IMG/VR virus record: IMGVR_UViG_3300025759_000638
Location: 1 to 25,348 of that record
Length of the DNA: 25,348 nt
DNA from: a virus
Direction: 5' to 3' (one strand)
Part shown: piece after piece, positions 1-11,040 of the stretch
How the letters are laid out: every line of letters begins with the position of its first letter
Numbering within the stretch: position 1 is the first letter of the stretch
Notes under the pieces: model-generated
Seen by the model: the letters and a program-made list of their open reading frames with translations, nothing else
Told to the model about the DNA's origin: nothing
Databases searched by the model: none
Program-made: the position numbers and the translations under genes

Positions 1-91
1 CTATGCCTACGGCATTTAAAGGGCAATTTACCTCAATTACGCCCTCAAAGACCTGTGTTTTAAATTATTTTCTCTAATTTACGCAAATGTA

Positions 92-120
92 TTGACCCCG
101 CTAAAACTTTGTGATAAAAT
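92..120 (+). promoter_or_regulatory. sigma70-type promoter, copy 1 of a repeated module
   Basis: A TTGACC -35 box (92-97) is followed after 17 bp by TAAAAT (115-120), and then directly by CGGCGCC in the expected start region. The surrounding sequence (GCAAAT..GTATTGAC..CCCGC..AAA) recurs around the promoter at 498-526, so this looks like a duplicated promoter module. Downstream lies only a 4-codon ORF with a good ribosome site (ATG at 146), then the promoter of the 219 gene. Confidence 0.6.
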
Positions 121-163
121 CGGCGCCATTTGGAAAAGGGGACAAATGATGCTAAAATAATTC

Positions 164-191
164 TTGCTTTGCTGGAAAATGTCTGTATAAT
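164..191 (+). promoter_or_regulatory. promoter for the 50-aa ORF at 219
   Basis: TTGCTT (164-169), a 16-bp spacer and a perfect TATAAT (186-191) lie 27 bp before the start codon. An AAGGAG ribosome site (207-212) stands between. The -35 box is weak. Confidence 0.5.
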
Positions 192-218
192 ATATTACAT
201 ATTCAAAAGGAGATTAAA

Positions 219-371
219 ATGACAGATAAAAAAGCAACAAAAGTTCTTGAGCCAACCAAAGCACAATTGGTGAGAGATGTGGAACAAAAGTTTCGTCTTA
301 AAAAATTCGAGCTAGATAGCTTGGAGAGAGCGAACAAAGCGACAATTGTCAAATTGTTAAGCCTCAGATAG
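219..371 (+). CDS. small charged protein, 50 aa, function unknown
   Basis: A short ORF starting at ATG 219, with AAGGAG six bases upstream and its own promoter. It ends at TAG 371, just before an intrinsic terminator, so it is a complete single-gene transcription unit. The product is rich in Lys and Glu, with no Cys and no membrane segment, and is probably all-helical (ends ANKATIVKLLSLR). I do not recognise the family. Its place beside the repeat and DnaA-box region makes a role in replication or copy control possible, but this rests on position only. Confidence 0.7.
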   Translation: MTDKKATKVLEPTKAQLVRDVEQKFRLKKFELDSLERANKATIVKLLSLR

Positions 372-377
372 AGCGAG

Positions 378-400
378 GGGGACGAAAGTCCCCTTTTTTT
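378..400 (+). terminator. intrinsic terminator
   Basis: GGGGAC, a GAAA tetraloop and GTCCCC form a 6-bp GC-rich stem (378-393), followed by seven T residues (394-400). It ends the transcript of the 219 gene seven bases after its stop codon. Confidence 0.9.
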
Positions 401-411
401 GGTTTAAAAAT

Positions 412-431
412 GATAGTAAGTGCTTACTATC
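412..431. promoter_or_regulatory. operator-like palindrome, left copy
   Basis: GATAGTAAG and CTTACTATC are perfect 9-bp arms around a 2-bp centre. The core AGTAAG..CTTACT recurs at 729-742, on the other side of the tandem repeats, so the two are probably sites for the same dimeric protein. Confidence 0.55.
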
Positions 432-497
432 GCTGCAGCGGGCGTTCAAATAGGAGACAAATGTCGAAAAGTTTTTTCATTAATTTGCAAATATGTA

Positions 498-526
498 TTG
501 ACAGACCCGCAAAAGTGTGTTATAAT
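498..526 (+). promoter_or_regulatory. consensus sigma70 promoter reading into the tandem repeats
   Basis: TTGACA (498-503), 17 bp, TATAAT (521-526): a full match to the sigma70 consensus. GGGCGCC follows immediately, as CGGCGCC follows the promoters at 92 and 1588. No gene follows. The transcript would cross the tandem repeats, so a primer or regulatory RNA is conceivable. Confidence 0.75.
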
Positions 527-545
527 GGGCGCCGCCGGCTTTGTA

Positions 546-669
546 GACTTCGCTTTGGCACTTCACTTTCGCACTTTGGCGCTGGAGACTTCGTTTTGGC
601 ACTTCACTTTTGCACTTCGGCGCATGGCGACATTCGTCACTTTATCACTTTAGCACTTTGGCGCAGAGC
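546..669. repeat. three tandem 41-42 bp repeats
   Basis: Units start at 546, 587 and 629, each with GACTTCG or a variant. Units 1 and 2 differ at few positions. Unit 3 is more diverged but keeps GCACTTTGGCGC at the same place. Within units a shorter CACTT motif recurs. Such iterons often bind a replication initiator or partition protein. The frame crossing them (462-733) is open and has an AGGAGACAA before its ATG, but it would span a consensus promoter and is rejected as coding. Confidence 0.8.
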
Positions 670-728
670 GTGTGAGATTCGACATCTGTCCCTTTATCTC
701 AAAAGCAACAAATGTCCAGATTTATGTA

Positions 729-742
729 AGTAAGCGCTTACT
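729..742. promoter_or_regulatory. operator-like palindrome, right copy
   Basis: AGTAAGCGCTTACT is a perfect 14-bp palindrome. It shares the core of the palindrome at 412-431, and the pair brackets the promoter and tandem repeats. Confidence 0.55.
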
Positions 743-769
743 AACCAAATTGTTCCACGAATGTTCCAT

Positions 770-799
770 TGTGGATAAGTCTGTGAATAGTGGGGATAA
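770..799 (-). other. cluster of three DnaA-box-like 9-mers
   Basis: TGTGGATAA (770-778) is the exact complement of the consensus DnaA box TTATCCACA. TGTGAATAG (782-790) and TGGGGATAA (791-799) are close variants in the same orientation. Two TGTTCCA motifs precede them (751 and 762). Three boxes within 30 bp are unlikely by chance in AT-rich DNA and support binding of host DnaA. Confidence 0.65.
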
Positions 800-807
800 C
801 TCGCCCT

Positions 808-835
808 CTCTCAAATTACCTAAGTAATTTGAGAG
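808..835. other. 12-bp perfect hairpin
   Basis: CTCTCAAATTAC, loop CTAA, GTAATTTGAGAG. No T-run follows on either strand, so it is not a canonical terminator. It lies between the DnaA boxes and the end of the leftward operon, and could slow leftward transcription or be part of the origin. Confidence 0.6.
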
Positions 836-862
836 TATGACGAAGTATGACGTTTTTAGCGT

Positions 863-1033
863 TTAATCGTCTTTCGACGGGAAGGGATTGTCCCGTGTTC
901 CGCAAATGGAATAGAACCCAAATCCATAACAGCACGAGCATTCGTCAACCCCAGTAAAACCGCAGCCGCCACATTGCTCGCAAGGAATACGAACCTTAAG
1001 CGGGTCATTATCGTTGTCAGATTTATCATACAT
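863..1033 (-). CDS. small zinc-finger protein with DnaJ-like cysteine motifs, 56 aa
   Basis: The start at 1033 is chosen because AAGGGG lies six bases before it and it overlaps the stop of the upstream gene; the longer open frame has no ribosome site. The protein has an acidic N-terminus, then CEQCGGCGFTG and CSCCYGFG. These are two CxxCxGxG-type motifs as in the DnaJ zinc-binding domain, here alone without a J domain. The four paired Cys would bind one zinc. It is the second gene of a two-gene leftward operon. Its partner is not known; similar orphan fingers in phages are thought to act in protein or nucleic acid binding. Confidence 0.7.
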   Translation of the reverse strand: MYDKSDNDNDPLKVRIPCEQCGGCGFTGVDECSCCYGFGFYSICGTRDNPFPSKDD

Positions 1034-1442
1034 ATTTAACCCCTTTTTTCTGAAAATGCCGTCTAGCCTTAGCCATATAGAGATGAGCATTTTCTGGTTT
1101 CCAAGTGACCTGAACATTTCGCATACGCTCAACCACATCTACAGTCTGGGCAACTGTTAGGCGGTCAGCTGAAATCCACCAGTCCCATGTGCGATTTGGG
1201 GATTTGGATAATTCCTCTGGACTCCAAACAACAAAGGCTCTGGAATGAACCCTATCTAGAATTTCATGACCAGCTCTCTCGACTGCCCTAGCGTGACGCA
1301 AGGATTTGCAAGGCAAGGCAACATTAATATTCATGACTTTGTTATAGGCTCGTCGCCAATGATCAGAAGTCACACCAATAGTTACGCAGTGTTCCTCGCC
1401 CTGAATGAGCGACCAACCTACATAAACAAAATAGTCTTTCAT
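1026..1442 (-). CDS. possible GIY-YIG/T5orf172-like nuclease-fold protein, 138 aa
   Basis: The start at 1442 has AGGAGAAAATT before it and a leftward promoter at about 1475. The N-terminus YFVYVGW, then TIGVTSDHWRRAYN and AVERAGHEIL, follow the layout of the GIY-YIG/T5orf172 fold: a first strand, a (K)IG-T segment with a following Arg, and a later helix with a Glu. The two canonical GIY and YIG tyrosine motifs are degenerate, so activity is uncertain. The C-terminal part has Trp-rich and basic segments (TWDWWISADR, KARRHFQKKG). Its stop overlaps the start of the zinc-finger gene. A similar protein is encoded at 2728-3213. Family membership is my reading of the pattern, not a search result. 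Confidence 0.7.
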   Translation of the reverse strand: MKDYFVYVGWSLIQGEEHCVTIGVTSDHWRRAYNKVMNINVALPCKSLRHARAVERAGHEILDRVHSRAFVVWSPEELSKSPNRTWDWWISADRLTVAQTVDVVERMRNVQVTWKPENAHLYMAKARRHFQKKGVKYV

Positions 1443-1472
1443 AATTTTCTCCTTATTAATTAATGAACCCCT

Positions 1473-1481
1473 AGTATAACA
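1473..1481 (-). promoter_or_regulatory. extended -10 promoter for the leftward 1442-863 operon
   Basis: Read on the minus strand, TGTTATACT is an extended -10 (TGnTATACT). It lies about 30 bp before the start codon at 1442. No clear -35 box is seen, which fits extended -10 promoters. Confidence 0.5.
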
Positions 1482-1587
1482 GCAAACCCGCCAAAATTAG
1501 AAGTATTGTATAAATATACAGTATCAATATCCCTATCATATAAAAGACTAGTCTGTCAAATTTTTTTAAAATTTTCTGTCACATGAT

Positions 1588-1617
1588 TTGACAAACAAAT
1601 ATAAGGTGTGGTAAAAT
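1588..1617 (+). promoter_or_regulatory. sigma70 promoter, copy 3 of the GGCGCC family
   Basis: TTGACA (1588-1593), 18 bp, TAAAAT (1612-1617), followed by CGGCGCCGCC, as at 92 and 498. A long palindrome begins in the initially transcribed region and no gene follows rightward. Confidence 0.6.
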
Positions 1618-1625
1618 CGGCGCCG

Positions 1626-1650
1626 CCAAATGAGAATCATTCTCATTTGG
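1626..1650. promoter_or_regulatory. Fur-box-like palindrome or attenuator hairpin
   Basis: CCAAATGAGAA and TTCTCATTTGG are perfect 11-bp arms around TCA. The core TGAGAATCATTCTCA (1631-1645) has the 7-1-7 inverted repeat form of Fur operators. It begins nine bases after the -10 box, a position where a repressor would block the promoter at 1588. The palindrome is followed by GATTTTT, so it could also end the transcript early as an intrinsic terminator. Both readings are inference. Confidence 0.5.
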
Positions 1651-1697
1651 GATTTTTATGTTTTTTGGGAATTTCCTGGTGGTCTCTTAAATCGTCT

Positions 1698-1781
1698 CAC
1701 CTTAAAATTTGTTTATTTTGTTAAACTTTGTTTATAAACAAATTTTAAGGTGTGTTGGCTCAAATGTCAAGTTTTGTGACA
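1698..1781 (+). repeat. composite inverted-repeat element, copy 1
   Basis: A 19-bp perfect inverted repeat (1698-1716 and 1734-1752, 17-nt loop) is followed after exactly 12 nt by TGTCAAGTTTTGTGACA (1765-1781), itself a TGTCA/TGACA inverted repeat. Copies at 2258-2343 and 3737-3822 have the same layout. Stem positions next to the common TTAAAATTTG core differ between copies with matching changes on the other arm (CACC/GGTG, CGCC/GGCG, TGGT/ACCA), so the pairing is conserved. Confidence 0.85.
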
Positions 1782-1793
1782 AATTTTTTGCAT

Positions 1794-1820
1794 AAAAAAA
1801 GAGGGCAAAAAGCCCTCTTT
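1794..1820 (-). terminator. intrinsic terminator for leftward transcripts
   Basis: AAAGAGGGC, loop AAAAA, GCCCTCTTT (1798-1820). On the minus strand the stem is followed by a run of T residues (the A run from 1800 back to 1794). It ends the candidate RNA and sits just beside inverted-repeat element 1. Confidence 0.85.
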
Positions 1821-2192
1821 AGTTGGTGTGAAAATCTTTTGATTGTTGTTAAGTAATCTTTCGATAACCTAAGTTTTAAATTTTCAGATTGGGCAACGTC
1901 TTATTTTAATTTTGGTTATAGTTAATATAAAACCCAATCCACCAAGCGATTTAAGGAATCAAAAAATCTACCTATCGTTTCCAGGTGATCGTGCTGTCGG
2001 TTAGTCGGCATAGCCTTCCTGTTTTCTAGCGTTCGATTCCCCTTTCGGTTTTCAAGCGTTTAGTTCGATTCCTCAAACCTAGTTAGAGAGGTCGGAGTGC
2101 TTTGCGTTTTCGTTCCTCTCGGTGTCCTCGGTTGCCCTTGGAAGTCGGAGTTCGGAGAGTTGCTTTTCCTCGCCTTATTCCCTCTCTAACAT
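1795..2192 (-). ncRNA. candidate structured non-coding RNA, about 400 nt
   Basis: This gene-free stretch is bounded on the minus strand by a promoter (-10 at 2199-2204) and a strong intrinsic terminator (1794-1820). The transcript would begin at about 2192 with AUGUUAGAGAGG. Its GTTAGAGAGG (2190-2181) pairs perfectly with CCTCTCTAAC (2091-2082), closing an 89-nt domain. Further pairings are a 7-bp GATTGGG/CCCAATC helix (1887-1893 with 1933-1939) and a small ACCT/AGGT hairpin (1970-1986). The 1960-2190 part is richer in GC than its surroundings. A GTTCGATTCC-like sequence occurs twice on the plus strand (2031-2040 and 2063-2072), but no tRNA fold closes around either copy. It does not match the parts of RNase P RNA or tmRNA that I can recall. 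Confidence 0.5.
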
Positions 2193-2198
2193 AAGATT

Positions 2199-2227
2199 AT
2201 TATAACCCGAAAATATAATTTTGTGCA
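2199..2227 (-). promoter_or_regulatory. leftward promoter for the candidate RNA
   Basis: On the minus strand, TGCACA (2227-2222), 17 bp, and a perfect TATAAT (2204-2199). The -35 box matches four of six consensus bases. The predicted start, near 2192, is two bases before the long-range stem. Confidence 0.45.
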
Positions 2228-2257
2228 AGTCTTTTTTGAATTATTTTTAAATCTTCT

Positions 2258-2343
2258 CGCCTTAAAATTTGCGTCCCTTCGGTTAATGCTTTGCATTAAG
2301 CAAATTTTAAGGCGTGTCAGATTAAAAGTCAAGTTTTGTGACA
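2258..2343 (+). repeat. composite inverted-repeat element, copy 2
   Basis: A 14-bp perfect stem (2258-2271 and 2301-2314) surrounds a 29-nt loop that holds its own 7-bp hairpin (TTAATGC, TTT, GCATTAA at 2283-2299). After exactly 12 nt comes AGTCAAGTTTTGTGACA (2327-2343). The copy has the same orientation as copy 1, and a leftward terminator likewise lies directly beside it. Confidence 0.85.
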
Positions 2344-2370
2344 CAAAAAAAGAGGGCAATTTGCCCTCTT
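2344..2370 (-). terminator. intrinsic terminator of the leftward 3614-2405 operon
   Basis: Arms AAGAGGGCAA and TTGCCCTCTT (2350-2370) around one T. On the minus strand the stem is followed by T residues (A run 2344-2350). It lies 35 bp past the last stop codon of the operon. Confidence 0.85.
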
Positions 2371-2404
2371 ATAAATTCTGATTTAGTTTTAAAGGAGATA
2401 GAAT

Positions 2405-2626
2405 TTAATCAGAATTTTTCGAAATGAGTTTTTCAAGTTCTCTTATTTTAGAATCCCAATATTTTGTTGGTTTCCCTTGTGATTCATATTCTCTTTTGAA
2501 TCTTTTATATTTAGTTAATAGAATTTTATTTCCTAAAAGTTTTCCTTGCCTGTTTGCTCTGTTGATTCCCTCTATACCTTTCGATTGGATAGATGTTGTT
2601 TTTAATTGGTTTTGCGATTGCGTCAT
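2405..2626 (-). CDS. small basic protein, 73 aa, weak resolvase-like segment
   Basis: The last gene of the leftward operon. The ATG at 2626 has AAGGA eight bases upstream. The protein is Lys/Arg-rich and helical. The segment QSKGIEGINRANRQGKLLGN recalls the link between the catalytic and DNA-binding parts of serine resolvases (..GI..A..RG...G.). However, no catalytic domain is present, so it is either a remnant or an unrelated small DNA-binding protein. It overlaps the upstream gene by 101 bases in another frame, which is unusually long, so one of the two may be truncated or frameshifted. Confidence 0.5.
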   Translation of the reverse strand: MTQSQNQLKTTSIQSKGIEGINRANRQGKLLGNKILLTKYKRFKREYESQGKPTKYWDSKIRELEKLISKNSD

Positions 2627-2738
2627 ATTTAAAAGTCCTTTCGAGTTCTATTTTCTTTTTGAAGTTGTCAGCAGTTGGCTCGATTCCAACCTTAATAATT
2701 TTGACATCTTGCCCATTAATATTTGTTTCAATTTGCAT
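2526..2738 (-). CDS. small protein of unknown function, 70 aa
   Basis: I chose the start at 2738 because it overlaps the stop of the preceding GIY-YIG-like gene, with GGGGAAAAG upstream. The N-terminal half looks like a small beta-rich domain (MQIETNINGQDVKIIKVG). The C-terminal half is basic. No family is recognised. The out-of-frame overlap of 101 bases with the next gene is odd for this otherwise tightly coupled operon. Confidence 0.45.
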   Translation of the reverse strand: MQIETNINGQDVKIIKVGIEPTADNFKKKIELERTFKYDAIAKPIKNNIYPIERYRGNQQSKQARKTFRK

Positions 2739-3213
2739 ATAGTTCTTTTCCCCATTGTTGCAGTTCGTTAACATTCCTAGTCTTTGATCTTAAAATCTTT
2801 TGCAGTTCAGATTCCAGATAGAAAATAAATTCATCATCTGTAGTTGAATCAGCATTATAAATTTCAGTATAGCCATAAATTTTTTTATCGCTAATTGCTG
2901 AATATTTTTCAAAAGCACAGTCTAGGCTTTTCTTTAAAAATTTCTCGATATAATAAGTTTCAATATCAAGCCACCTTAAACCCTTGTCAAATGAAAGCCA
3001 AATATAACCTATCTCATAATCAGCATAATCTTTTTCAAATGATTTAAACCTTTTTACAGCGTCTATAGTTTTTCCGAATTTAATATATCGTTCTATGATG
3101 TTTCCCTTATCTGATTTTTTCTCAATCGATAAAAGATATAAATGCGAATATTTTAATTGATCTAAAGGCACATTATATTTATAAATCTTTCTAGTTAATA
3201 TTTCTTTTTTCAT
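2728..3213 (-). CDS. possible GIY-YIG/T5orf172-like nuclease-fold protein, 161 aa
   Basis: The start at 3213 has AGGAAACA directly upstream. The protein shows HLYLLSI, then IKFGKTIDAVKRFKSF, and later LDIETYYIEKFL. This matches the strand, (K)(F/I)GKT, Arg and catalytic-Glu helix pattern of the T5orf172 branch of the GIY-YIG fold. It is about twice as long as the minimal domain; the rest is charged and unrecognised. It is the central gene of an operon bracketed by inverted copies of the composite repeat, which would suit a mobile or homing cassette. A second protein with the same pattern is encoded at 1026-1442. Function is inferred from the motif layout only. Confidence 0.65.
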   Translation of the reverse strand: MKKEILTRKIYKYNVPLDQLKYSHLYLLSIEKKSDKGNIIERYIKFGKTIDAVKRFKSFEKDYADYEIGYIWLSFDKGLRWLDIETYYIEKFLKKSLDCAFEKYSAISDKKIYGYTEIYNADSTTDDEFIFYLESELQKILRSKTRNVNELQQWGKELYAN

Positions 3214-3427
3214 TGTTTCCTATTGTTTGATAATCTCGAATCCAACCAATAAGACCGATTCCAGAGGTAAAAAAATAAATCCATAATGACATTATGAAAG
3301 TATGAATTGTTAAAATTGATAGAGCAATAATAAAAGCGATTGCCCTTGTTTTTGAATTAGTAAAAAAAGGGGCAATGCCAATAATGATTGCCCCTAAAAT
3401 GCCAAATAATAAAATGGCTAAATCCAT
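3191..3427 (-). CDS. small integral membrane protein, 78 aa
   Basis: Two hydrophobic segments can be seen (about residues 3-20 and 28-58, the latter perhaps two passes), followed by a short polar tail. The ATG at 3427 follows the preceding stop by one base, so translation is probably coupled. Its end overlaps the next gene by 23 bases. No family is recognised; a role at the inner membrane is all that can be said. Confidence 0.65.
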   Translation of the reverse strand: MDLAILLFGILGAIIIGIAPFFTNSKTRAIAFIIALSILTIHTFIMSLWIYFFTSGIGLIGWIRDYQTIGNNEKRNIN

Positions 3428-3428
3428 A

Positions 3429-3614
3429 TTAGGATTTTTCCCAAGCTGTTAAGTGTCCTAGCTTATTGGTTTTCCAATCGTAATTTTTAGCAATACCTTT
3501 TAGTTCTGCCATAATTTTTAAATTGGCTACAGTTATTCCATCTGCTTTGATTCTGCTATCGATCATCTCGGCTAGTTTAACTTTTGGGATGTTGGTTTCT
3601 TTTTTCTTTTCCAT
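3429..3614 (-). CDS. small basic protein, 61 aa, first gene of the leftward operon
   Basis: The start at 3614 has AGAGGTAAATC before it and a promoter about 30 bp further upstream. The product is Lys-rich and predicted helical (KLAEMIDSRIKADGITVANL), with a Trp-containing C-terminus. No Cys and no membrane segment. The compact helical form would suit a small regulator of the divergent promoters, but no HTH is clear and the family is unknown. Confidence 0.65.
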   Translation of the reverse strand: MEKKKETNIPKVKLAEMIDSRIKADGITVANLKIMAELKGIAKNYDWKTNKLGHLTAWEKS

Positions 3615-3641
3615 GATTTACCTCTTTTTGAATGTCTATCT

Positions 3642-3669
3642 AGTATATCAATTTAAGAAATCTTATCAA
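3642..3669 (-). promoter_or_regulatory. promoter of the leftward 3614-2405 operon
   Basis: On the minus strand, TTGATA (3669-3664), 16 bp, TATACT (3647-3642). It is divergent from the rightward promoter at 3868, with composite element 3 between them. Confidence 0.6.
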
Positions 3670-3736
3670 TGGGGAATCGCAAATTATAGCCTTTAATAGT
3701 GGTTAAAAAATAACCAATATTTTTTTGTAAAAAAGT

Positions 3737-3822
3737 TGTCACAAAAGTTGACATTTAAAGTGACTTGGTTTAAAATTTGTTTTATTAAACAAGTTTAAAC
3801 AACAAAAACAAATTTTAAACCA
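3737..3822 (-). repeat. composite inverted-repeat element, copy 3, inverted
   Basis: TGTCACAAAAGTTGACA (3737-3753), exactly 12 nt, then an 18-bp perfect stem (3766-3783 and 3805-3822). The 21-nt loop contains TTAAAC..GTTTAA. It is the mirror orientation of copies 1 and 2. It occupies the 315-base gene-free gap between the divergent operons (3615-3929), so it may control both. Confidence 0.85.
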
Positions 3823-3867
3823 TGTCTTTTAAAGCAAAATTAAAAAGAAAAATAATTAAAATAAATC

Positions 3868-3896
3868 TTGCATACCTAGTGGAAATTTCATATAAT
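3868..3896 (+). promoter_or_regulatory. promoter of the rightward 3930-5002 operon
   Basis: TTGCAT (3868-3873), 17 bp, perfect TATAAT (3891-3896). The predicted start near 3903 coincides with an upstream ATG, so the ATG at 3930 with its AAAGGAG is the likely start codon. Confidence 0.7.
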
Positions 3897-3929
3897 TAGT
3901 GTATGTTAAATATTAAAGGAGAAAATAAC

Positions 3930-4157
3930 ATGAGTAAGAATGAAGTCGAACAAGCTAACCTAAGATCAGAATTATGGTCATTGGTTCATCAAGTATCTAA
4001 ATTAGATATGGAGATTGCTAGAAAATTAGATGTAGTTATTAGCGATCTTCAAGAAGTCCAATTTAGAATAGGATTAGATAAGGGTACAGAGATTGGCTTA
4101 TCAATCCATGAGAAAGGACAAGCAATTCTTTCTTTAATCAATAAGGAGAATTCATAA
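3930..4157 (+). CDS. small helical protein, 75 aa, function unknown
   Basis: The start at 3930 is preferred over 3903 because AAAGGAG (3915-3921) stands nine bases before it and the transcript starts at about 3903. The product is acidic and amphipathic, with heptad-like hydrophobics (LWSLVHQVSKLDMEIARKL), so it probably dimerises as a coiled coil. It is the first gene of a five-gene coupled operon. No family is recognised. Confidence 0.7.
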   Translation: MSKNEVEQANLRSELWSLVHQVSKLDMEIARKLDVVISDLQEVQFRIGLDKGTEIGLSIHEKGQAILSLINKENS

Positions 4158-4330
4158 TGCCTATTGAAGTAATGATTGCATATATTCCTCTTACCTTTGC
4201 CATTATAATAGTAATCTATTCTAGTGCCTTTGAAACCTCTATGCCTTACAGCGTTCAGCTATTGTTAAGCTTTGCTAGTATTCTGTTAGTAATGTTATCA
4301 ATGCTAATTTTATTTGGGGGTATAGTATGA
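4157..4330 (+). CDS. two-pass small membrane protein, 57 aa
   Basis: A short ORF whose ATG shares its first base with the preceding stop (TAATG), with AAGGAG nine bases upstream. Its own stop overlaps the next start as ATGA. Two hydrophobic helices (about residues 5-24 and 35-57) are joined by a short polar loop (ETSMPYS). The size and topology resemble small phage membrane proteins such as holin-like or inner-membrane modifiers, but nothing more specific can be supported. Confidence 0.7.
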   Translation: MPIEVMIAYIPLTFAIIIVIYSSAFETSMPYSVQLLLSFASILLVMLSMLILFGGIV

Positions 4331-4566
4331 CAAAATTAAATAATGCAATGTATGGGGGCGATACACATTTTCAACAAATGATAAGCAGAATGAAACCTTA
4401 TTCAGTTCATGCAAGTGTTGATCCAATCGCAAGAATGGTAAAGTTTAGAAAAGTTTATCAAGAATATATTTTAACGCTTGGCTTAACAGCCGAGCAACGA
4501 GATACCTTAACAACAAAGATTGAGGATTTCGCAACAGCATCTTATGATGCAGGAGAAATGGGATGA
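4327..4566 (+). CDS. small protein, 79 aa, function unknown
   Basis: ATGA overlap with the preceding gene, with a G-rich ribosome site (GGGGG at 4316-4320). The product is soluble and largely helical in its second half (AEQRDTLTTKIEDFATASYD), with a Gly/His-containing N-terminus. No family is recognised. Confidence 0.65.
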   Translation: MTKLNNAMYGGDTHFQQMISRMKPYSVHASVDPIARMVKFRKVYQEYILTLGLTAEQRDTLTTKIEDFATASYDAGEMG

Positions 4567-4757
4567 TTATATTTAATCTAGGGAATGATAGGATAGAGGG
4601 CAAAGATTGGAAAGATTGTCAAAAGCAAATGAAAACAAAAATGCTTTTAAAATCTTTATTTTCTGAAGTGCCTGTTTTTAATATGGAGTTAAACCATTAT
4701 GAGCAATGGCAAAAAGAGGAACGCTTTAAGAAAACAAGAATGAAAGAGTTGTTTTAA
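4563..4757 (+). CDS. small protein, 64 aa, function unknown
   Basis: Starts in an ATGA overlap with the upstream gene, with GGAG ahead of it. It is charged, with conspicuous Lys/Gln/Glu runs in the C-terminal helix (EQWQKEERFKKTRMKEL). No recognised domain. Coupling on both sides supports it as a real gene. Confidence 0.6.
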   Translation: MIIFNLGNDRIEGKDWKDCQKQMKTKMLLKSLFSEVPVFNMELNHYEQWQKEERFKKTRMKELF

Positions 4758-5002
4758 TGTTAGCTAAAATATTTAAAAAACAGTTGACGATTAAAACAAG
4801 ATTTAATCCAGCGAACGCCAATGATGTGCAAGCCTTTAACAAGGCTTGCAACATTTTAGAAAAGCAAGGCGTAGAATTTGAAAAAGGAACAGAAACAGTT
4901 GCAACAGAATTTGGTAAGAAATTATATTTTAGATATTCTTTGATAACCGATATTTTAATTTGGATTGTTCTGCCTTTAGCTGGTCTGATCTTTTTCTTGT
5001 AA
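4757..5002 (+). CDS. C-terminally membrane-anchored protein, 81 aa
   Basis: Starts in a TAATG overlap. It has a basic N-terminus, a small polar domain and one hydrophobic C-terminal helix (about residues 61-80, SLITDILIWIVLPLAGLIFF), so it should be tail-anchored in the inner membrane with its bulk in the cytoplasm. It is the last gene of the operon. No family is recognised. Confidence 0.65.
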   Translation: MLAKIFKKQLTIKTRFNPANANDVQAFNKACNILEKQGVEFEKGTETVATEFGKKLYFRYSLITDILIWIVLPLAGLIFFL

Positions 5003-5007
5003 GCACA

Positions 5008-5035
5008 CAGAGGGGGGTTAGTTGACTCACCTCTG
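5008..5035 (+). other. hairpin after the 3930-5002 operon
   Basis: CAGAGG and CCTCTG pair around a loop that itself contains AGTTGACT. No T-run follows, so termination here would be weak or factor-dependent. The gap up to the next promoter (5138) shows nothing else I can name. Confidence 0.35.
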
Positions 5036-5137
5036 CTCTATCGCTCACACCCCTCCGCACGTACAACTTTAAAAAATTTTGAAAAGTCAAAAAAGACGCA
5101 GAACTTTACATCATGATGATGCATACAAAAATATAAC

Positions 5138-5166
5138 TTGACATCAATGTCAGTTTTTGCTATAAT
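5138..5166 (+). promoter_or_regulatory. late-type consensus promoter before the small terminase gene
   Basis: TTGACA (5138-5143), 17 bp, TATAAT (5161-5166), with a TTTTTGC stretch just before the -10. The same arrangement recurs at 12822 and 17291. The expected start (about 5173) falls on the ATG of the next gene, so the mRNA may be leaderless. Confidence 0.8.
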
Positions 5167-5172
5167 TCACAT

Positions 5173-5637
5173 ATGGCAAAGACACAAATATCTACACGAA
5201 TCAGCCCAGAAGGACTGGAAATTGCAAACGCTTACTTGGAACTAGGAAGTATCCCCGCTGTCTGCTCTCGATTATCAATCGATGAGGCAAAAGCATCCGA
5301 GTACTTACAAAAGAGAGAGGTGAAAGCATATGTTGATCAAGTTTATCTCGATACTGGATATCGAAATCGTTTTAAGTTAGCAGAAGTACTTGATACTTTA
5401 ATAGACGCCAAAATGGAAGAAGCCGAAGAAAGCGAGGTATACACTAGTAAGGATTTAGCCGATCTTGTAGGTATGGCACATAAAATTCGTATGGATGAAT
5501 TAAAAGCACAAACGGAACTAGAAAAAGCAAAAGCACAGACAATTAAAACGCAAGTGAACATACAAGATAATTCACAAGTACCGTTTGGACAAGGAAACTA
5601 TGGAGAGCTTATGAAAAAGCTCCTAAAAGATAAATGA
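5173..5637 (+). CDS. terS: probable terminase small subunit, 154 aa
   Basis: The N-terminal half contains a helix-turn-helix-like segment (GSIPAVCSRLSIDEAKASEY), followed by RFKLAEVLDTLIDAKMEEAE and a long charged helical region (MDELKAQTELEKAKAQ). The C-terminus (GNYGELMKKLLKDK) is what would touch the large subunit. Size and layout fit phage small terminases, which recognise the packaging site and form a ring. No other Met lies near the N-terminus, so ATG 5173 is taken as the start even though it coincides with the predicted transcription start and has no ribosome site. The large subunit is encoded 10 kb away. Assignment is by pattern and position. Confidence 0.65.
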   Translation: MAKTQISTRISPEGLEIANAYLELGSIPAVCSRLSIDEAKASEYLQKREVKAYVDQVYLDTGYRNRFKLAEVLDTLIDAKMEEAEESEVYTSKDLADLVGMAHKIRMDELKAQTELEKAKAQTIKTQVNIQDNSQVPFGQGNYGELMKKLLKDK

Positions 5638-5646
5638 TAAATAAAA

Positions 5647-5853
5647 GTGAACAAAGTAAAGCGAACATTTTCCTCTCTAGTAAGGATGCCCTATCAGGAT
5701 GCGATTGCGGTTGTATTGCATTGCTACGACTTTCACATGGAGATGTGCGCTAAAACACCAGAAGACAAAGAATTTCACATAGAACAAGCCAACAGACTAA
5801 GAAACTGGCTCAGCGATGTAAAAGATTACATTGAGAGAAAAGAAAGTGAGTAA
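5647..5853 (+). CDS. small protein, 68 aa, function unknown
   Basis: Begins at a GTG nine bases after the small terminase; an internal ATG at 5686 is an alternative start. The product is a compact helical protein with several His and Cys residues (VLHCYDFHMEMC) and an acidic-basic C-terminus (NWLSDVKDYIERKESE). Its end overlaps the start of the next gene. No family is recognised. Confidence 0.55.
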   Translation: MNKVKRTFSSLVRMPYQDAIAVVLHCYDFHMEMCAKTPEDKEFHIEQANRLRNWLSDVKDYIERKESE

Positions 5854-5983
5854 AATTATAGAATGGCACAAAAAATTAGTAGAGGATGCAAGAAATCAAT
5901 TCGGATTAAGTAAATATGCAGTAATGTGGATAGCATTTTTAAAAGGAATAGTACTCACGTTACTAGTTTTAGCACTAATATGA
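5846..5983 (+). CDS. single-pass small membrane protein, 45 aa
   Basis: A GTG start overlaps the preceding gene by 8 bases, and the stop overlaps the next start as ATGA. It has an amphipathic, charged N-terminus (SKIIEWHKKLVEDARNQFG) and one C-terminal membrane helix (about residues 26-45). From memory, proteins of this layout (EWHKKLVEDA.. then a TM helix) recur in uncultured marine phage genomes, of unknown role. The topology suggests an inner-membrane anchor for something on the cytoplasmic face. Confidence 0.65.
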   Translation: MSKIIEWHKKLVEDARNQFGLSKYAVMWIAFLKGIVLTLLVLALI

Positions 5984-6282
5984 ATGCAAATGACGTTTTT
6001 ACACTCATTGCAGAGGTAGGAGCACCCATAGCAGGCGCATTAATCGCTGGAGTTTTCATTTTTGTGATTATGCAACAAATTATGGGAGGAGTTGTTAGTC
6101 AAATAGGCACTCTCAAAGGGTTTTGCGAGATGCTTGTTACACGAATCAAGACAATGAACAATGATATGATACGATTAGACACAAGTGTAAGCGCAGCGCT
6201 CGACTTAGCACCAGATTTAGATAGAATAGCAAGAGCCGAAAACTTTGTAGAAGATGGGAGTATTGATGTCAGAAGAGACTAA
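5980..6282 (+). CDS. small membrane protein, holin-like layout, 100 aa
   Basis: The start at 5980 is in an ATGA overlap with the preceding gene. One hydrophobic segment (about residues 14-36, PIAGALIAGVFIFVIMQQIM) is followed by a helical, amphipathic tail. It shares N-terminal and coil features with the protein at 6523-6780 (AE.G.PI, then NDMIRL followed by a helix), so the two look like diverged paralogues. The layout recalls UviB/BhlA-type holin-like peptides, but these genes sit upstream of a secretion operon and no endolysin is near. A membrane scaffold for that system is an alternative. Confidence 0.6.
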   Translation: MNANDVFTLIAEVGAPIAGALIAGVFIFVIMQQIMGGVVSQIGTLKGFCEMLVTRIKTMNNDMIRLDTSVSAALDLAPDLDRIARAENFVEDGSIDVRRD

Positions 6283-6523
6283 TGTTTGTTTTACTCAAGA
6301 TGAGTGGTATGACTTTGTAAGTGAGTACGAACTTGAAATCCTTGATGAAATTGGAACACCCGCTACTACAGGAGATGCCCAAGCAGCCATAGACTTTATA
6401 TGGCAAACACTCTTTCTCAGTCCTTGGGAACTTGCGTACATTGCTCTACCCATGACTGTATTAGCTTTCTACGGATTGTCTATTTACAGTATTTTTAAAT
6501 ATATACAAAAGAGATTTAGTTAA
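6266..6523 (+). CDS. acidic protein with C-terminal membrane helix, 85 aa
   Basis: The start at 6266 is chosen for GGGAG five bases upstream; it overlaps the preceding gene by 17 bases. The first 50 residues are acidic (DEWYDFVSEYELEILDEIG). A hydrophobic helix (about residues 54-75, ELAYIALPMTVLAFYGLSIY) is followed by a basic tail KYIQKRF. This suggests a single pass with the acidic part outside and the basic tail in the cytoplasm. No family is recognised. Confidence 0.6.
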   Translation: MSEETNVCFTQDEWYDFVSEYELEILDEIGTPATTGDAQAAIDFIWQTLFLSPWELAYIALPMTVLAFYGLSIYSIFKYIQKRFS

Positions 6524-6780
6524 TGGCAGAATTAATAGCAGAGTTCGGATTTCCAATTGTAGCAATGGTTGGACTAGGATATTTCGTATACTATGTATGG
6601 AGAACGATGATAGGAGTTATCGGTCCTGCAATCAAAGAGATGCATTTTGCACTTATAAAGTTAATCGATCAAATAAGAATGTTAGACAACGACATGATCA
6701 GGCTGCAGCAAAAAGTAAATACAATACTGCAAATGAAAGAAAATGAGAAAAAGCGTTCTACTACTACTAATCGCAAGTAG
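6523..6780 (+). CDS. small membrane protein, paralogue of the 5980 product, 85 aa
   Basis: Starts in a TAATG overlap. One membrane helix at residues 8-30 (FPIVAMVGLGYFVYYVWRTM) is followed by an amphipathic coil (LIKLIDQIRMLDNDMIRLQQ) and a basic tail. The IRMLDNDMIRLQQKV segment matches IKTMNNDMIRLDTSV of the 5980 product. It overlaps the signal peptide region of the first curlin gene by 38 bases, tying it to that operon. Confidence 0.6.
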   Translation: MAELIAEFGFPIVAMVGLGYFVYYVWRTMIGVIGPAIKEMHFALIKLIDQIRMLDNDMIRLQQKVNTILQMKENEKKRSTTTNRK

Positions 6781-7534
6781 CCTACAAGCAGACGATAACC
6801 ATGTACATATAGATCAATCTGGAGCAAATATGCAAATGGAAATTGATCAAATTGCAGGAACAATCAATAAAGTAGACCTTTCAATTGATGGTACTAGTAA
6901 CTCCCTCGACATTGATCAGTGGGGAAGTAATAACGAGGTATCATGGGTTGACTACTGGGGCTCGGGTGCGAGCTGGGGTGGAGACTTAGACGGAAACAAC
7001 AACTCACTTCATTTTTACCAGTATTGCTCACGAGGCGCTAACTGTGCTAAGAGTGATGTAGGCTTTCATGTATGGGGAGATAGAAATAATGTTCGTTGGG
7101 GTCAAGGTGGTATACTTGATGATATAGATGATACTACTTTTGGAAACGATGGCGATGAAGGTGGTGGATCAAAACTCAATCTTGATATTCACGGAAACGA
7201 CAACAAACTTGCAGGAGTACAAAGAAACGGAAGTGCAAACGTATGGAGTGGACACACTGCAACAATTTACTTATATTCAGACGATAATGAAGTATGGGTA
7301 AATCAAAATACAGATGGAGCAAAAACGTTTAGTCTAACAACAAATAATGATGAGAATAGTGTAAGTGTAGAACAGACAGGATATGCAGCACATACAGGAA
7401 CAATTACTTTAACAGGTAGTTCTCCAACAACATTAAATTTAACACAACAAAGCAATACAGCACAATCTTATAGTTTAACACAAAATTGTGTAACTATAGG
7501 CGGTTGCTCAGTATCAGTGACACAAGGACAATGA
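6743..7534 (+). CDS. secreted curlin-repeat protein (CsgA/CsgB-like), 263 aa
   Basis: A Sec signal peptide of 16 residues (MRKSVLLLLIASSLQA, cut before DD) is followed by spaced curlin-type repeats with Asn, Ile and Gln at fixed distances, such as HIDQSGANMQMEIDQIAG, NSLDIDQWGSNNEV and VSVEQTGYAAHTGTITLTG. In curli these strand-loop-strand units stack into an amyloid beta-solenoid. This protein is about 100 residues longer than E. coli CsgA, is rich in Asn, Asp, Gly and Trp, and ends with a possible disulfide (NCVTIGGC). The paralogue is at 8818. The csgF- and csgG-like genes directly after it identify the likely export route. Whether it polymerises is unknown. Confidence 0.8.
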   Translation: MRKSVLLLLIASSLQADDNHVHIDQSGANMQMEIDQIAGTINKVDLSIDGTSNSLDIDQWGSNNEVSWVDYWGSGASWGGDLDGNNNSLHFYQYCSRGANCAKSDVGFHVWGDRNNVRWGQGGILDDIDDTTFGNDGDEGGGSKLNLDIHGNDNKLAGVQRNGSANVWSGHTATIYLYSDDNEVWVNQNTDGAKTFSLTTNNDENSVSVEQTGYAAHTGTITLTGSSPTTLNLTQQSNTAQSYSLTQNCVTIGGCSVSVTQGQ

Positions 7535-7554
7535 AAGAAGAATTTGGAAGTGGA

Positions 7555-8040
7555 ATGAGCACTGCAGTAAAATACATAATTGCAGCTGGACTCATAGGAT
7601 TTTTACTAAACCAAGCATTATTTGCAGATGAAATGGTACACAAGTTCAAAAGTCCTTCCTTCAACGGTCAAGGCATTTCAGCACATTACCTAACAATCGA
7701 AAATCAAGAAACAAACAGACAAAATGAGATCAAACAAGCATTACAAGATGCACTAGAAGAAGCAGAAAGAGACGCACAGAATACAACTCTTGCAAGATTT
7801 ATTAAAAATTTAGAAAGTAGAATTTATTCACAACTTAGTAGAGATCTAGTTGATAATTTATTCGCAGATGGAATAGCAAGTGCAGCAACAGGAGTCATTG
7901 AACTTCAAGGTAACTATATAGAGTACTCAAGTGATGGAATCACTGTGACACTCAAAGTTACGGACAGTGAGGGAAATGTTACAGAGATCACAATACCTAT
8001 CGGTAGTTTCGGCGATTTCAGTCTTGATGGTGACGGCTAG
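7555..8040 (+). CDS. csgF: CsgF homologue, curli assembly factor, 161 aa
   Basis: The start at 7555 gives a clean signal peptide (STAVKYIIAAGLIGFLLNQA, cut after LFA at 24) with GGAAG upstream. An upstream ATG at 7531, in a CAATGA overlap with the curlin stop, is an alternative. The mature N-terminus has FKSPSFNGQG, matching the F.NP.FGG motif by which CsgF enters the CsgG pore. A helix (LARFIKNLESRIYSQLSRDL) and a C-terminal beta hairpin (NYIEYSSDGITVTLKVTD) also match E. coli CsgF in order. In curli, CsgF extends the CsgG channel and helps nucleation at the surface. Its end overlaps csgG by 65 bases. Confidence 0.85.
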   Translation: MSTAVKYIIAAGLIGFLLNQALFADEMVHKFKSPSFNGQGISAHYLTIENQETNRQNEIKQALQDALEEAERDAQNTTLARFIKNLESRIYSQLSRDLVDNLFADGIASAATGVIELQGNYIEYSSDGITVTLKVTDSEGNVTEITIPIGSFGDFSLDGDG

Positions 8041-8821
8041 CTGTATGCTGGCGCCTGGCAAAGATGTCAGAGATTTTATAAATAACAATCGTCATCTTAC
8101 TGTAGAAAACGTAGCTCAAGTAAGAGAGTTACATAACGAAGAACTATATGCAATTAAAAGAGTTTCTACACCCGCACCTGTAATAGCAATCTATAAGTTT
8201 CCAGACTTAACAGGGCAAAGAAAAAGTAATTCAACTTTTGCACTTTTTAGCACTGCAGTAACAATGGACCCTGCAAGTTTGCTTATTCGTGCATTTAAGC
8301 ATGCAGGAAATGGAAAGTTCTTTCGAGTAGTTGAAAGAGCTGGGTTAGATCATCTTACAAAAGAAAGACAACTTATTCGTTCTACTAGAAATAGTTTGAA
8401 TGAAAAAGAGCAAGTTCTGCCACTACTATTTGCAGGCTTGCTAATTGAAGGCGGTGTTATCGGGTATGACACCAATCTACGATCAGGAGGTATTGGAGCA
8501 AGGTATCTGGGTATTGGAGCTCAGAAACAATATCGTGAAGATACTGTATCAGTTTCAATTAGAACTATCTCAGTCTCATCTGGTGAAGTTTTAATGGAAG
8601 TACTTGTGACAAAGACTATTCTCTCGGTAGGAGTGTCACAGGATGTATTTAGGTTTATAGAACTTGGAACAGAATTAGTCGAAGTAGAAAATGGAGCAAC
8701 TAAGAACGAAAGTGTGACGATTGCTTTACAAAAAGCTTTAGAGACAGGAGTTTTACAAACAATCTATGAAGGGGAGAAAAAGGGGTACTGGAAAACAGCA
8801 CCCGCTGGGGAAGCACAATGA
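7976..8821 (+). CDS. csgG: CsgG homologue, outer-membrane lipoprotein pore, 281 aa
   Basis: The start at ATG 7976 follows GAGGG; a GTG at 7967 is possible. A lipoprotein signal ends in VTASC, with Cys23 to be acylated. The mature part follows E. coli CsgG closely in order: YKFPDLTGQ, FSTAV, ERQLIRSTR, IEGGVIGYDTNLRSGGIGAR, GIGAQKQY, SGEVL, TKTILS, VFRFIELGTEL and an ALETGV segment. CsgG forms a nonameric outer-membrane channel that secretes curlin subunits. Length fits the family (277 aa in E. coli). Its start region lies inside csgF in another frame, and its stop overlaps the next start (CAATGA). It is the strongest homology call in the operon. Confidence 0.92.
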   Translation: MLQRSQYLSVVSAISVLMVTASCMLAPGKDVRDFINNNRHLTVENVAQVRELHNEELYAIKRVSTPAPVIAIYKFPDLTGQRKSNSTFALFSTAVTMDPASLLIRAFKHAGNGKFFRVVERAGLDHLTKERQLIRSTRNSLNEKEQVLPLLFAGLLIEGGVIGYDTNLRSGGIGARYLGIGAQKQYREDTVSVSIRTISVSSGEVLMEVLVTKTILSVGVSQDVFRFIELGTELVEVENGATKNESVTIALQKALETGVLQTIYEGEKKGYWKTAPAGEAQ

Positions 8822-9570
8822 AATTAGTTGGAGCTAATTTAATACTAGTACTCATTGCAGTATTTACAATTTTTGCAAGTGCAGCTGACAATGAAGTATT
8901 TATAACACAGAGCGGTACGAATGCTCAAATAGAAATCGATCAGATTGGATCAGGAAACACTGTAGAAGGAAATGAAGCCGCAGGTTCAGAACCAATTAGT
9001 GATTTCAAATTAACAGGTAATTCACAAACGATTGATATTGATCAGGTTGGTGACAGTAACATTTTTAGAGGAGATATTGATTCCGATACTTTTACTGGTA
9101 ACTTTAGTTTTACTGGAGATAGTAATGAGTTTGACATTCAATTTGATCCAGCAGGAAGTTATATTTCTGATAATATTACAATGGATGTTACAATTACTGG
9201 AAGCTCAAATGATCTTACTGTAACAGTAGCAAATAATGATAGTGCAGCAAACTTAGATTATGATGCAGTTATTAGTGGTGATTACAATACTTGGGTTACT
9301 GCTATTGATTCAGATAACGTTACATTCAATGTGGATGTAAATGGAAGTAATGGTAGTATAGACTATGATGCAGATGGTTATGCTGTAAACTCAAGCGGAC
9401 ATACATTCATTTTAGATCAAGATGGAGATTATGTCGACTATGTAATCGATCAACAGTCAACAAGTGCTGTGGATTATTTAAACTTACAAATGACAACAAG
9501 TGGTACAAGTGGAAGCGAAGCAAATATTTGCGTTTATCAGTCTGATAACGCTACATCTACAAGCTGCTGA
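8818..9570 (+). CDS. second secreted curlin-repeat protein (CsgA/CsgB-like), 250 aa
   Basis: ATG in a CAATGA overlap with csgG; GGGGAAG upstream. The signal peptide is about 22 residues (cut in FASA/AD). The N-terminus FITQSGTNAQIEIDQIGSGN and then TIDIDQVGDSN parallel the first curlin protein almost position for position. The middle is a long series of Thr/Ser/Asn/Asp-rich strand repeats with few Gln, and the end has two Cys (NICVYQ and the last residue). One of the two proteins may nucleate the other, as CsgB does for CsgA; the sequence does not show which. Theoretically very acidic. Its 3' end encodes the start of the FecR gene in another frame. Confidence 0.8.
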   Translation: MKLVGANLILVLIAVFTIFASAADNEVFITQSGTNAQIEIDQIGSGNTVEGNEAAGSEPISDFKLTGNSQTIDIDQVGDSNIFRGDIDSDTFTGNFSFTGDSNEFDIQFDPAGSYISDNITMDVTITGSSNDLTVTVANNDSAANLDYDAVISGDYNTWVTAIDSDNVTFNVDVNGSNGSIDYDADGYAVNSSGHTFILDQDGDYVDYVIDQQSTSAVDYLNLQMTTSGTSGSEANICVYQSDNATSTSC

Positions 9571-10609
9571 TATAGGAAGCATAAGCGAACTAAAGGGTGA
9601 AGCTTCGGTCAATCGATCAGGCGAAGCCCTTACAGCCGCATTAGATTTAGGAGTTGAATCTTATGACGATGTTAGAACTGCTAATAGTAGGGTGGGTCTT
9701 ACTTTTATCGACGACTCTGTTGTGCGTCTTACTGAGCATTCGAAGCTTATACTTGACGAGGTTATATTTGATCCAGATCCTTCTAAGTCTAAGATTGGAC
9801 TTACTTTTGCTTCGGGAACAGCAAGATTTATTACAGGAAAAATAGGTGGAATTAATAAAGAAAATATCAAGATCAATACTCCGACTTCTCAAATCGGTAT
9901 TCGAGGAACTGACTTTACTGTTACTGTTGATGAGCTGGGTCGTAGCTTGGTTATTCTTCTACCTGATATCGATGGGATATCATCTGGCGAGATCACAGTG
10001 GAGACCGCAGCGGGATTGGTCATTCTTAACAAACCGTATGAAAGCACCACCACATCCGTCTGGGAAAGTTCACCAACGCAACCAGTAACACTCGATATCA
10101 CACTAGACTTAATTGACAATATGCTCATAGTAAATGAGCCAAAAGAAGAAGAAGTAGTAGAAGAAACAAATAATGTAAGAACTGGAGACTTACTTGATTT
10201 TAATGATTTAGACGTAGACCTACTTAATGAAGATGTGCTAGCAGAAGAAGATTTAGAATTTACAGAACTTGACATTAACTTTTTAGATGTTAACTTTTTC
10301 GAAGACTTACTTGAAGTCATAGAAGAAATAGATCGATTAAGAGAAGGAAACGAAAAAGATAAAAAGACAGCATCAGTAGGAAAAGCTACTATCGAGGGTA
10401 CAACGATTGGTCAAGATCCTACTACTCAAATTATTACTATAGTAGATACACAGAATATAAACATATCGAGACAAGTAAATGACTTTGCAAAAGTTCGACT
10501 TGACTCACAGGCAGGAGTAACTTTAATTATATCACAAGATGGAAAAGAATATAACATTATTATTAATAAAGGTGGGACTTCTAATATTATCATTAGACAG
10601 TCCAGCTAA
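9500..10609 (+). CDS. secreted FecR-domain protein, 369 aa
   Basis: GTG start (9500, or 9509), overlapping the curlin gene by 71 bases. A signal peptide of about 22 residues ends in LHLQA/AD. Residues about 25-185 form a FecR domain: GSISELKGEASVNR, a RVGLTFIDDSVVRL segment, and TPTSQIGIRGTDFTV, the family's most conserved motif. An unusually acidic, low-complexity stretch (about 213-285) follows, and then a beta-rich tail with NINISRQ and SNIIIRQ, which resemble single curlin half-repeats. FecR-domain proteins act in the periplasm as ligand-binding or signalling partners, and in bacteria they are often encoded beside CHASE2 cyclases, as here. It is not the sigma-regulator FecR itself, since no N-terminal cytoplasmic part is present. 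Confidence 0.8.
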   Translation: MVQVEAKQIFAFISLITLHLQAADIGSISELKGEASVNRSGEALTAALDLGVESYDDVRTANSRVGLTFIDDSVVRLTEHSKLILDEVIFDPDPSKSKIGLTFASGTARFITGKIGGINKENIKINTPTSQIGIRGTDFTVTVDELGRSLVILLPDIDGISSGEITVETAAGLVILNKPYESTTTSVWESSPTQPVTLDITLDLIDNMLIVNEPKEEEVVEETNNVRTGDLLDFNDLDVDLLNEDVLAEEDLEFTELDINFLDVNFFEDLLEVIEEIDRLREGNEKDKKTASVGKATIEGTTIGQDPTTQIITIVDTQNINISRQVNDFAKVRLDSQAGVTLIISQDGKEYNIIINKGGTSNIIIRQSS

Positions 10610-10919
10610 ATGGGAAGACTGGAACACTACAGATAAAAATCTATATAAAGCATACCTAATAGGAAGTGCTTTAGATTACATGCAAACAAAAAATGCATTA
10701 GATAATCATTATGTAGAAGGAAACCCTTTTCTAGGGAGATATCCTTCCTCTGAGCGAATTTTAGCACAGAAAGTTTTATCTGCGGGTGTCATGTATTGGA
10801 GTTTTAATAAATTAGACGAAAAACAAAAAAGAAGAGGACTATTTATAGTCAATGGAATACAATGGGGAGTCGTTTTAAAAAATGAAAGCGTTGGTGCTAC
10901 ATTTATTTATCGCTGGTAG
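10539..10919 (+). CDS. small secreted or membrane protein, 126 aa, unknown
   Basis: ATG 10539 overlaps the FecR gene by 71 bases; a GTG at 10572 is an alternative start. A hydrophobic N-terminus (NITLLLIKVGLLILSLDSPA) is signal-like. The rest has a moderately hydrophobic helical pattern with conserved-looking ALDYMQTKNALDN and EGNPFLGRYPS, then two weak membrane stretches. A D..T..AL....EANP.LG pattern is known from uncharacterised small bacterial membrane proteins; I cannot name the family with confidence. Its place between FecR and the lipoprotein makes it a likely accessory of the same system. Confidence 0.65.
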   Translation: MEKNITLLLIKVGLLILSLDSPAKWEDWNTTDKNLYKAYLIGSALDYMQTKNALDNHYVEGNPFLGRYPSSERILAQKVLSAGVMYWSFNKLDEKQKRRGLFIVNGIQWGVVLKNESVGATFIYRW

Positions 10920-11040
10920 TTTACTTACTGCTTGCAGTACTGTACCACGAGAACCTCAAGAAGATAAATGGGGTCAATGGGACTTCTGTGAGCAGTGGGC
11001 TTATGACGGCGAATCATGGATGCAATGTATGAACTCATGA
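10882..11040 (+). CDS. short lipoprotein, 52 aa
   Basis: An overlooked short gene. It has a type II signal peptide with a textbook lipobox LTAC (Cys18). The 35-residue mature part is rich in Trp, Gln and Glu and has two further Cys (FCEQWAYDGESWMQC) that could form a disulfide. The start overlaps the previous gene by 38 bases, and the stop overlaps the cyclase start (CATGA). It has the size of a phage Rz1-type spanin lipoprotein, but no Rz partner is adjacent. A role in anchoring or regulating the CsgG/FecR system is as likely. Confidence 0.7.
   Translation: MKALVLHLFIAGSLLTACSTVPREPQEDKWGQWDFCEQWAYDGESWMQCMNS

Follow-up and report, generated by a model that had tools for sequence, protein, structure and literature searches.

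The window analysed here, the 25.3-kb IMG/VR virus record IMGVR_UViG_3300025759_000638 taken over its full length, carries three copies of an element in which a sigma70-type promoter and a perfect inverted repeat (IR) are built into one another. With their counterparts in other T5-related marine phages they bring the number of distinct promoters of this type to 23, spread over 15 contigs. Comparison of these copies establishes a family of predicted strong sigma70 promoters in which the perfect IR runs from about -17, through the -10 box, to about +15 to +48, the predicted +1 being set at 7 nt after the -10. As judged from the alignments, what selection keeps is the complementarity of the two arms rather than their letters, in fixed register with the -10. 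Because the arms stay complementary while their letters change, and because the -10 always lies in one arm, a role for folding of the DNA (or of RNA) in switching genes on or off is suggested. The explanation favoured overall, which we hold tentatively, is that these are palindromic sigma70 promoters whose folding as DNA would lock the -10.

Palindromic promoters in the window

The three copies lie at 1698-1781 and 2258-2343 on the minus strand and at 3737-3822 on the plus strand, where an earlier note on this DNA had also placed them, and are called A1, A2 and A3. Their stems are 19, 15 and 18 bp long; the earlier note had the first and last of these lengths and gave 14 bp for the middle copy. 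Three IRs with arms of 14 bp or longer occur in window positions 1-6000, and not one in 200 dinucleotide shuffles. Read on the proper strand, each copy is a sigma70-type promoter of the form TTGACA/T-N17-TAAAAT, scoring 10-11 of 12 against the -35/-10 consensus. A1 (minus strand, TTGACA-N17-TAAAAT, 11/12) has its -35 TTGACA at 1765..1770 and its -10 TAAAAT at 1742..1747, within the 19-nt promoter-side arm 1 (1734..1752); the leader-side arm 2, also 19 nt, is at 1698..1716. A2 (minus strand) has -35 TTGACT at 2327..2332 and -10 TAAAAT at 2304..2309, the latter within arm 1 (15 nt, 2300..2314), and arm 2 (15 nt) at 2258..2272. Its loop, 2273..2299, contains a nested hairpin, TTAATGC-AAA-GCATTAA, and a CC-GAA-GG minihairpin. 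A3 (plus strand) has -35 TTGACA at 3748..3753, -10 TAAAAT at 3771..3776, again within arm 1 (18 nt, 3766..3783), and arm 2 (18 nt) at 3805..3822.

Each element also has a 17-nt motif over its -35, described in the earlier note as TGTCA-N7-TGACA throughout. It is perfect in A1 (1765..1781) and A3 (3737..3753), while A2 reads AGTCA-N7-TGACA (2327..2343). The gap between motif and stem is exactly 12 nt in all three copies, as had been claimed. The motif is the -35 box together with upstream TTGTCACAAAA, and the window stems begin 5 nt upstream of the -10; the 12 nt and the first 5 stem nt thus add up to the 17-nt spacer between -35 and -10, so that the distance of the motif and the position of the stem reduce to the same observation. 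The fixed spacing had been taken, along with the pairing, as a sign of selection, a reading that overlooked the promoter, whose geometry explains the spacing. Nor does the dyad of the motif hold up as a conserved unit: the related loci L153 and L154 carry TTGACACAAAAN-TTGACA, and L103, L166, L167 and copy 1 of L084, the orthologue of A1, lack it. The dyad was rejected as an operator because it is not conserved. A fourth perfect TGTCA-N7-TGACA, which the earlier note does not mention, lies at 1576..1592 on the plus strand, over the -35 of a promoter at 1588 that has no IR around its -10.

The outer stem pairs that differ between the window copies are compensated (CACC/GGTG, CGCC/GGCG, TGGT/ACCA), in agreement with the compensating changes first noticed there. 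When arms are paired across copies, 1-4 of 14 positions mismatch, as against none within each copy. Co-directional intrinsic terminators stand directly upstream of A1 (1798..1820, minus strand) and of A2 (2350..2370, minus strand), and an opposing terminator-like hairpin sits 47 nt past A1. The elements themselves were rejected as intrinsic terminators, the stems being AT-rich and none of the three being among the terminators called in the window. A bidirectional promoter was likewise rejected, since -35 scores on the opposite strand equal the shuffled expectation. An Rfam scan of the window returned no match.

Pairing of the arms in related phages

Loci were collected by terminase homology and searched for promoters whose -10 is covered by an IR, and pattern scans added more; most of the contigs are fragments. 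Two of the pattern scans specified both arms, and their matches are not usable as evidence of pairing. A less biased set is formed by the terminase-derived loci L084, L098, L100, L103 and L105 together with a scan in which the -35 and arm 1 alone were prescribed. That scan found 9 sites, and arm 2 was perfect in all nine. All 23 promoters have a TTGAC[A/T] -35, N17 spacing and a near-consensus TAnnnT -10, and in every one the outer end of the arm lies 5-6 nt upstream of the -10. An additional copy, in L101, has TTGCAA as its -35.

Nineteen distinct IRs give 329 stem pairs, of which 327 are Watson-Crick, none G-T, none A-C and two other mismatches. Eight distinct 14-bp arm pairs were hand-picked to represent distinct arms and are all perfect by that selection (100% of cells paired); changes are two-sided at 11 of the 14 positions and one-sided at none. 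Their covariation is 0.75, against 0.19 +/- 0.05 when shuffled and at most 0.13 when the arms are slid. The weight of this figure rests on the variety of the arms and on the less biased loci. In L103 the copies CACCCTTAAACTTAC, CACCCTATAATTTCAT and TACCCTTAAACTATTCA have a common outer core and differ in the inner arm, which remains paired down to a 3-nt loop.

The closest comparison is with L084, whose contig was the sole match of the final pattern scan, made with the window's own arm class. Overall identity between the two is about 80%, and 103 aligned arm sites include two changes, both of them compensating. These belong to A2, where a G-C pair has become A-T (CGCC/GGCG in the window, CACC/GGTG in L084). 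Arm 2 of A3 is identical at 18/18 positions, and while the arms of A3 are unchanged its loop is 57% and its downstream sequence 45% identical. Both arms of A1 are also the same (19/19 each), in a copy conserved as a whole with its leader (98%), which is less informative on the arms alone. The two-sided changes, the fixed register and the free loop length together argue that pairing itself is selected. The earlier note had proposed selection on pairing and a check for further copies or loss of pairing in relatives; copies are present in many relatives with pairing intact, and their covariation supports the proposal.

Loops are 3-31 nt long, those of the short copies being 3-4 nt; loops of 0-2 nt were never seen. 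Thirteen long loops hold nested hairpins, with a summed stem of 83 against 41 in shuffles (maximum 50 of 500), and a C-GAA-G minihairpin is frequent among them (CCGAAGG, CCCGAAGGG, GCGAAGC). Because the nested hairpin begins at the predicted +1 or only a few nt from it in most long-loop copies, it may also serve the 5' end of the RNA.

Not every such locus has the element: it is missing from most other terminase small subunit loci that have long upstream sequence, and there was no direct DNA match in cultured phages. Strict patterns that included the full operator had no match in viral contigs; relaxed patterns did. Among about 85,000 prokaryote genomes, a scan found only three unrelated repeats without a -35, on which grounds a host or prophage element was rejected. 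A second promoter lies within 170 nt downstream in 11 of the 23 elements, against 4 expected, which may make many elements the outer promoter of a tandem pair. In L098, L100 and L105 a TTGACA-type box with a poor -10 (TAGGAT, TATGAG) also occurs about 60 nt upstream of the elements, possibly an outer tandem promoter.

Proposed folding of the promoter and alternative explanations

In the explanation we favour, the palindrome would act as DNA. Under negative supercoiling, or where the strands part, each strand would fold back on itself, with the -10 paired to the other arm of the same strand; sigma could not read a -10 held in such an intrastrand hairpin, and the promoter would be locked. On linear DNA, relaxed or freshly entered, the -10 would be plain duplex and the promoter would fire. 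In copies with longer loops, folding would be made cheaper by the nested hairpins and C-GAA-G minihairpins. The likely use is a switch between transcription classes that requires no phage sigma factor. A DNA fold is preferred to an RNA fold because the upstream terminators and the opposing hairpin limit read-through RNA long enough to carry both arms and because wobble pairs are absent. The broader proposal, that this is a natural class of topology-sensing sigma70 promoters by which T5-like phages would control timing with neither a phage sigma factor nor a phage polymerase, we regard as possible but doubtful.

Several points weigh against such a lock. The calculated cost of conversion, pre-junction and with DNA energies at 20 C, is 13-20 kcal/mol for copies with 3-4 nt loops and 27-47 for those with long loops. 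By a rough estimate, each turn of supercoiling at sigma -0.06 offers about 7.5 kcal. From these figures, cruciform extrusion would be plausible where the loop is short and energetically marginal where it is long. One of the elements in the L103/L166/L167 group points towards a terminator that lies 24-28 nt past the arm. A search for a homologue of T5 A1, run without a positive control, had no match in these contigs. On the energetics, hairpins of phage N4 have been observed at superhelical densities below theoretical prediction (PMC4496689).

An operator role for the arms, in which a phage regulator bound to the palindrome would repress or activate the promoter and pairing would be a by-product of dimer symmetry, seems to us unlikely. 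The palindrome does cover the -10, the usual position for a repressor, arm cores are common within groups (TGGTTTAAAATTTG, CACCCTTAAACT), and the upstream TTGTCACAAAA recurs; yet wherever one arm deviates the other carries the mirrored change, even inside one genome, and inner bases that differ between copies still pair down to the loop. Half-sites of 14-19 bp are, moreover, long for common dimers. Outer spans lie in the ranges 31-35 and 55-65 bp with no helical phasing, and because the span varies over 31-65 bp a single rigid protein dimer on both arms is unlikely, which bears also on the protein-bound cruciform suggested in the earlier note. Neutral origin of the palindromes deserves much less credence. 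Hairpin-templated copying (template switching), which makes or repairs perfect IRs without function, leaves fully matched arms, loops no shorter than 3 nt and changes that are mirrored and free of wobble pairs, all as observed here, but it does not lead one to expect a register with the -10 that is fixed in 23/23 promoters, arms changed at so few of the sites compared with L084 where the whole region is about 20% changed, or other near-consensus promoters of the window that lack such an IR. The least probable of these alternatives is a promoter-linked replication origin or DNA entry signal (an R-loop origin or an injection-stop-like region). The region is AT-rich, the cumulative GC skew changes direction at about 4 kb, and direct repeats lie near a perfect DnaA box (778); the skew turn, however, coincides with the switch of gene strand, the 2-3 copies per genome differ in orientation to the neighbouring RNA-like region, and nothing ties the arms to replication. 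The replication or recombination site listed in the earlier note found no positive evidence.

Two further explanations place the function in RNA. Selection might act on a hairpin in RNA transcribed through the element, or on the promoter's own 5'-terminal hairpin, through RNase III, 5' protection or leader control. The position of the nested hairpin relative to the predicted +1 resembles that of a 5'-protecting hairpin, and a further promoter-like site stands upstream of some copies (L098, L100); the excess of downstream promoters is also in favour. As an account of the outer stem this is quite improbable: the promoter's own RNA begins in the loop and so lacks arm 1, co-directional terminators precede A1 and A2, G-T pairs number 0 of 329, and the register with the -10 is left unexplained. 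RNA structure may explain the nested hairpin and not the outer stem. A self-targeting leader, in which arm 2 of the RNA anneals to the nontemplate -10 strand behind the departing polymerase and shuts the promoter through an RNA-DNA hybrid, would account for the -10 register, the free loop length and the compensating changes. No natural precedent for it is known to us, RNase H would oppose it, and we consider it very unlikely.

Among known systems, the early promoters of phage N4 use supercoil-extruded hairpins with a G..A loop closed by C-G (PMC4496689). Like the elements here, the N4 virion RNA polymerase promoters have an IR in a phage promoter and keep pairing while stem bases vary. The N4 hairpin differs in being short, with a 3-nt loop, centred near -11, and a positive signal for a phage polymerase, whereas here a sigma70 -35/-10 promoter has a 14-19 bp stem holding the -10, loops of 3-31 nt and a centre near or past +1. 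A search for PF00940 (phage single-subunit polymerase) had no match in 11 records, and its control matched nowhere either. Repression of an E. coli promoter by a cruciform was described by Horwitz and Loeb 1988 (as cited in PMC6060812). The likeness is a sigma70 promoter region that can be extruded as a cruciform, shutting transcription; it is a single case, and the elements described here are a natural, repeated, covarying phage family. A literature search, thin in subscription journals, found no sigma70 promoter family of this build named, and we know of none with the -10 inside a covarying palindrome.

In read-through hairpins of the T4 e/soc type, the promoter lies inside the 5' arm and the ribosome site in the 3' arm. 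The promoter in the 5' arm and own transcripts without arm 1 are features in common, but in the elements here arm 2 has no ribosome site and terminators stand upstream of A1 and A2. Ribosome-site occlusion was rejected on that basis, the first Shine-Dalgarno sequence with an open reading frame (ORF) of at least 40 codons lying 34-391 nt past arm 2. Some promoters of T5 and Vibrio T5-like phages (L179 36923-36974; L180 46337-46411 and 28597-28671) do have an IR whose 3' arm covers the ribosome site, and read-through mRNA from these would, on the evidence of their sequences, be occluded there. An IR score of at least 10 is reached by 8 of 44 T5 promoters against 6 of 220 shuffles (p 0.0005); these IRs are in other registers and are partly terminators or ribosome-site hairpins. 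In T5 1-50 kb none was in register, with one near case at 19422, shifted 4 nt, and two 48-50 kb stretches of Vibrio phage VspSw_1 had no promoter with an IR in this register.

T5 has three transcription classes, all transcribed by the host sigma70 polymerase from strong promoters, and the switching mechanism is stated as unknown (PMC7472727). A covarying palindrome over the -10 in a subset of promoters, placed where T5 has its pre-early genes, is a concrete candidate for class switching. If this is true, the family would be a natural, repeated counterpart of the E. coli cruciform-controlled promoter and a sigma70 relative of the N4 hairpin promoters.

Genomic setting and neighbouring features

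The terminase large subunit (about 50% identity) and portal (39%) encoded in the window resemble T5-like proteins, and the head-tail gene order is that of T5-like phages (Demerecviridae-related). The elements precede the terminase small subunit gene (5173) and lie at divergent blocks of small genes. The corresponding place is occupied in T5 by the pre-early terminal repeat and injection stop signal; a Vibrio relative was compared too. In common with the T5 region are the terminase/portal/head-tail order, the divergent small-gene blocks, and repeats and a DnaA box beside the terminase small subunit gene. The neighbouring region of the window has direct repeats and its perfect DnaA box is on the minus strand. 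Repeats, palindromes and DnaA boxes are abundant in the T5 injection stop signal (PMC13250531), which window positions 1-860 resemble in being repeat-rich (CACTTTGGCGC repeats, a palindrome at 808-835, the DnaA box at 778). The repeats of 1-860 recur in several relatives.

From about 2200 to 1797 on the minus strand, the window has a conserved GC-richer region without a long ORF, found also in L084, L103, L105, L174, L176 and L177. It has its own promoter (2227/2199) and terminator (1820-1798) and no Rfam match. Its fold z-score is -4.2 over 503 nt including the terminator and -0.9 for the 241-nt core. The region is probably a new phage noncoding RNA, as far as conservation and predicted folding indicate. 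That the element is a dedicated promoter for this RNA-like gene was rejected, since the element beside the region in L103, L166 and L167 faces away from it.

A second promoter family, TTGACA-N17-(TGTGG)-TAAAAT/TATAAT-(C/G)GGCGC, is represented at window positions 92, 498 and 1588 (plus strand) and comprises 30 sites over the window and its relatives. It is often followed by a varying hairpin, such as the Fur-box-like AAATGAGAATCATTCTCATTT at 1628-1648.

Window positions 6743-12818 carry genes for CsgG, FecR and a CHASE2-cyclase in a T5-like phage; the CHASE2-cyclase resembles cyclases of pelagiphage HTVC008M and Methylophilales phage Melnitz. In the relative L171, genes for NifU-N and an Fe-S carrier (Fe-S_biosyn) lie downstream of its element, at 5932-6712 on the minus strand.

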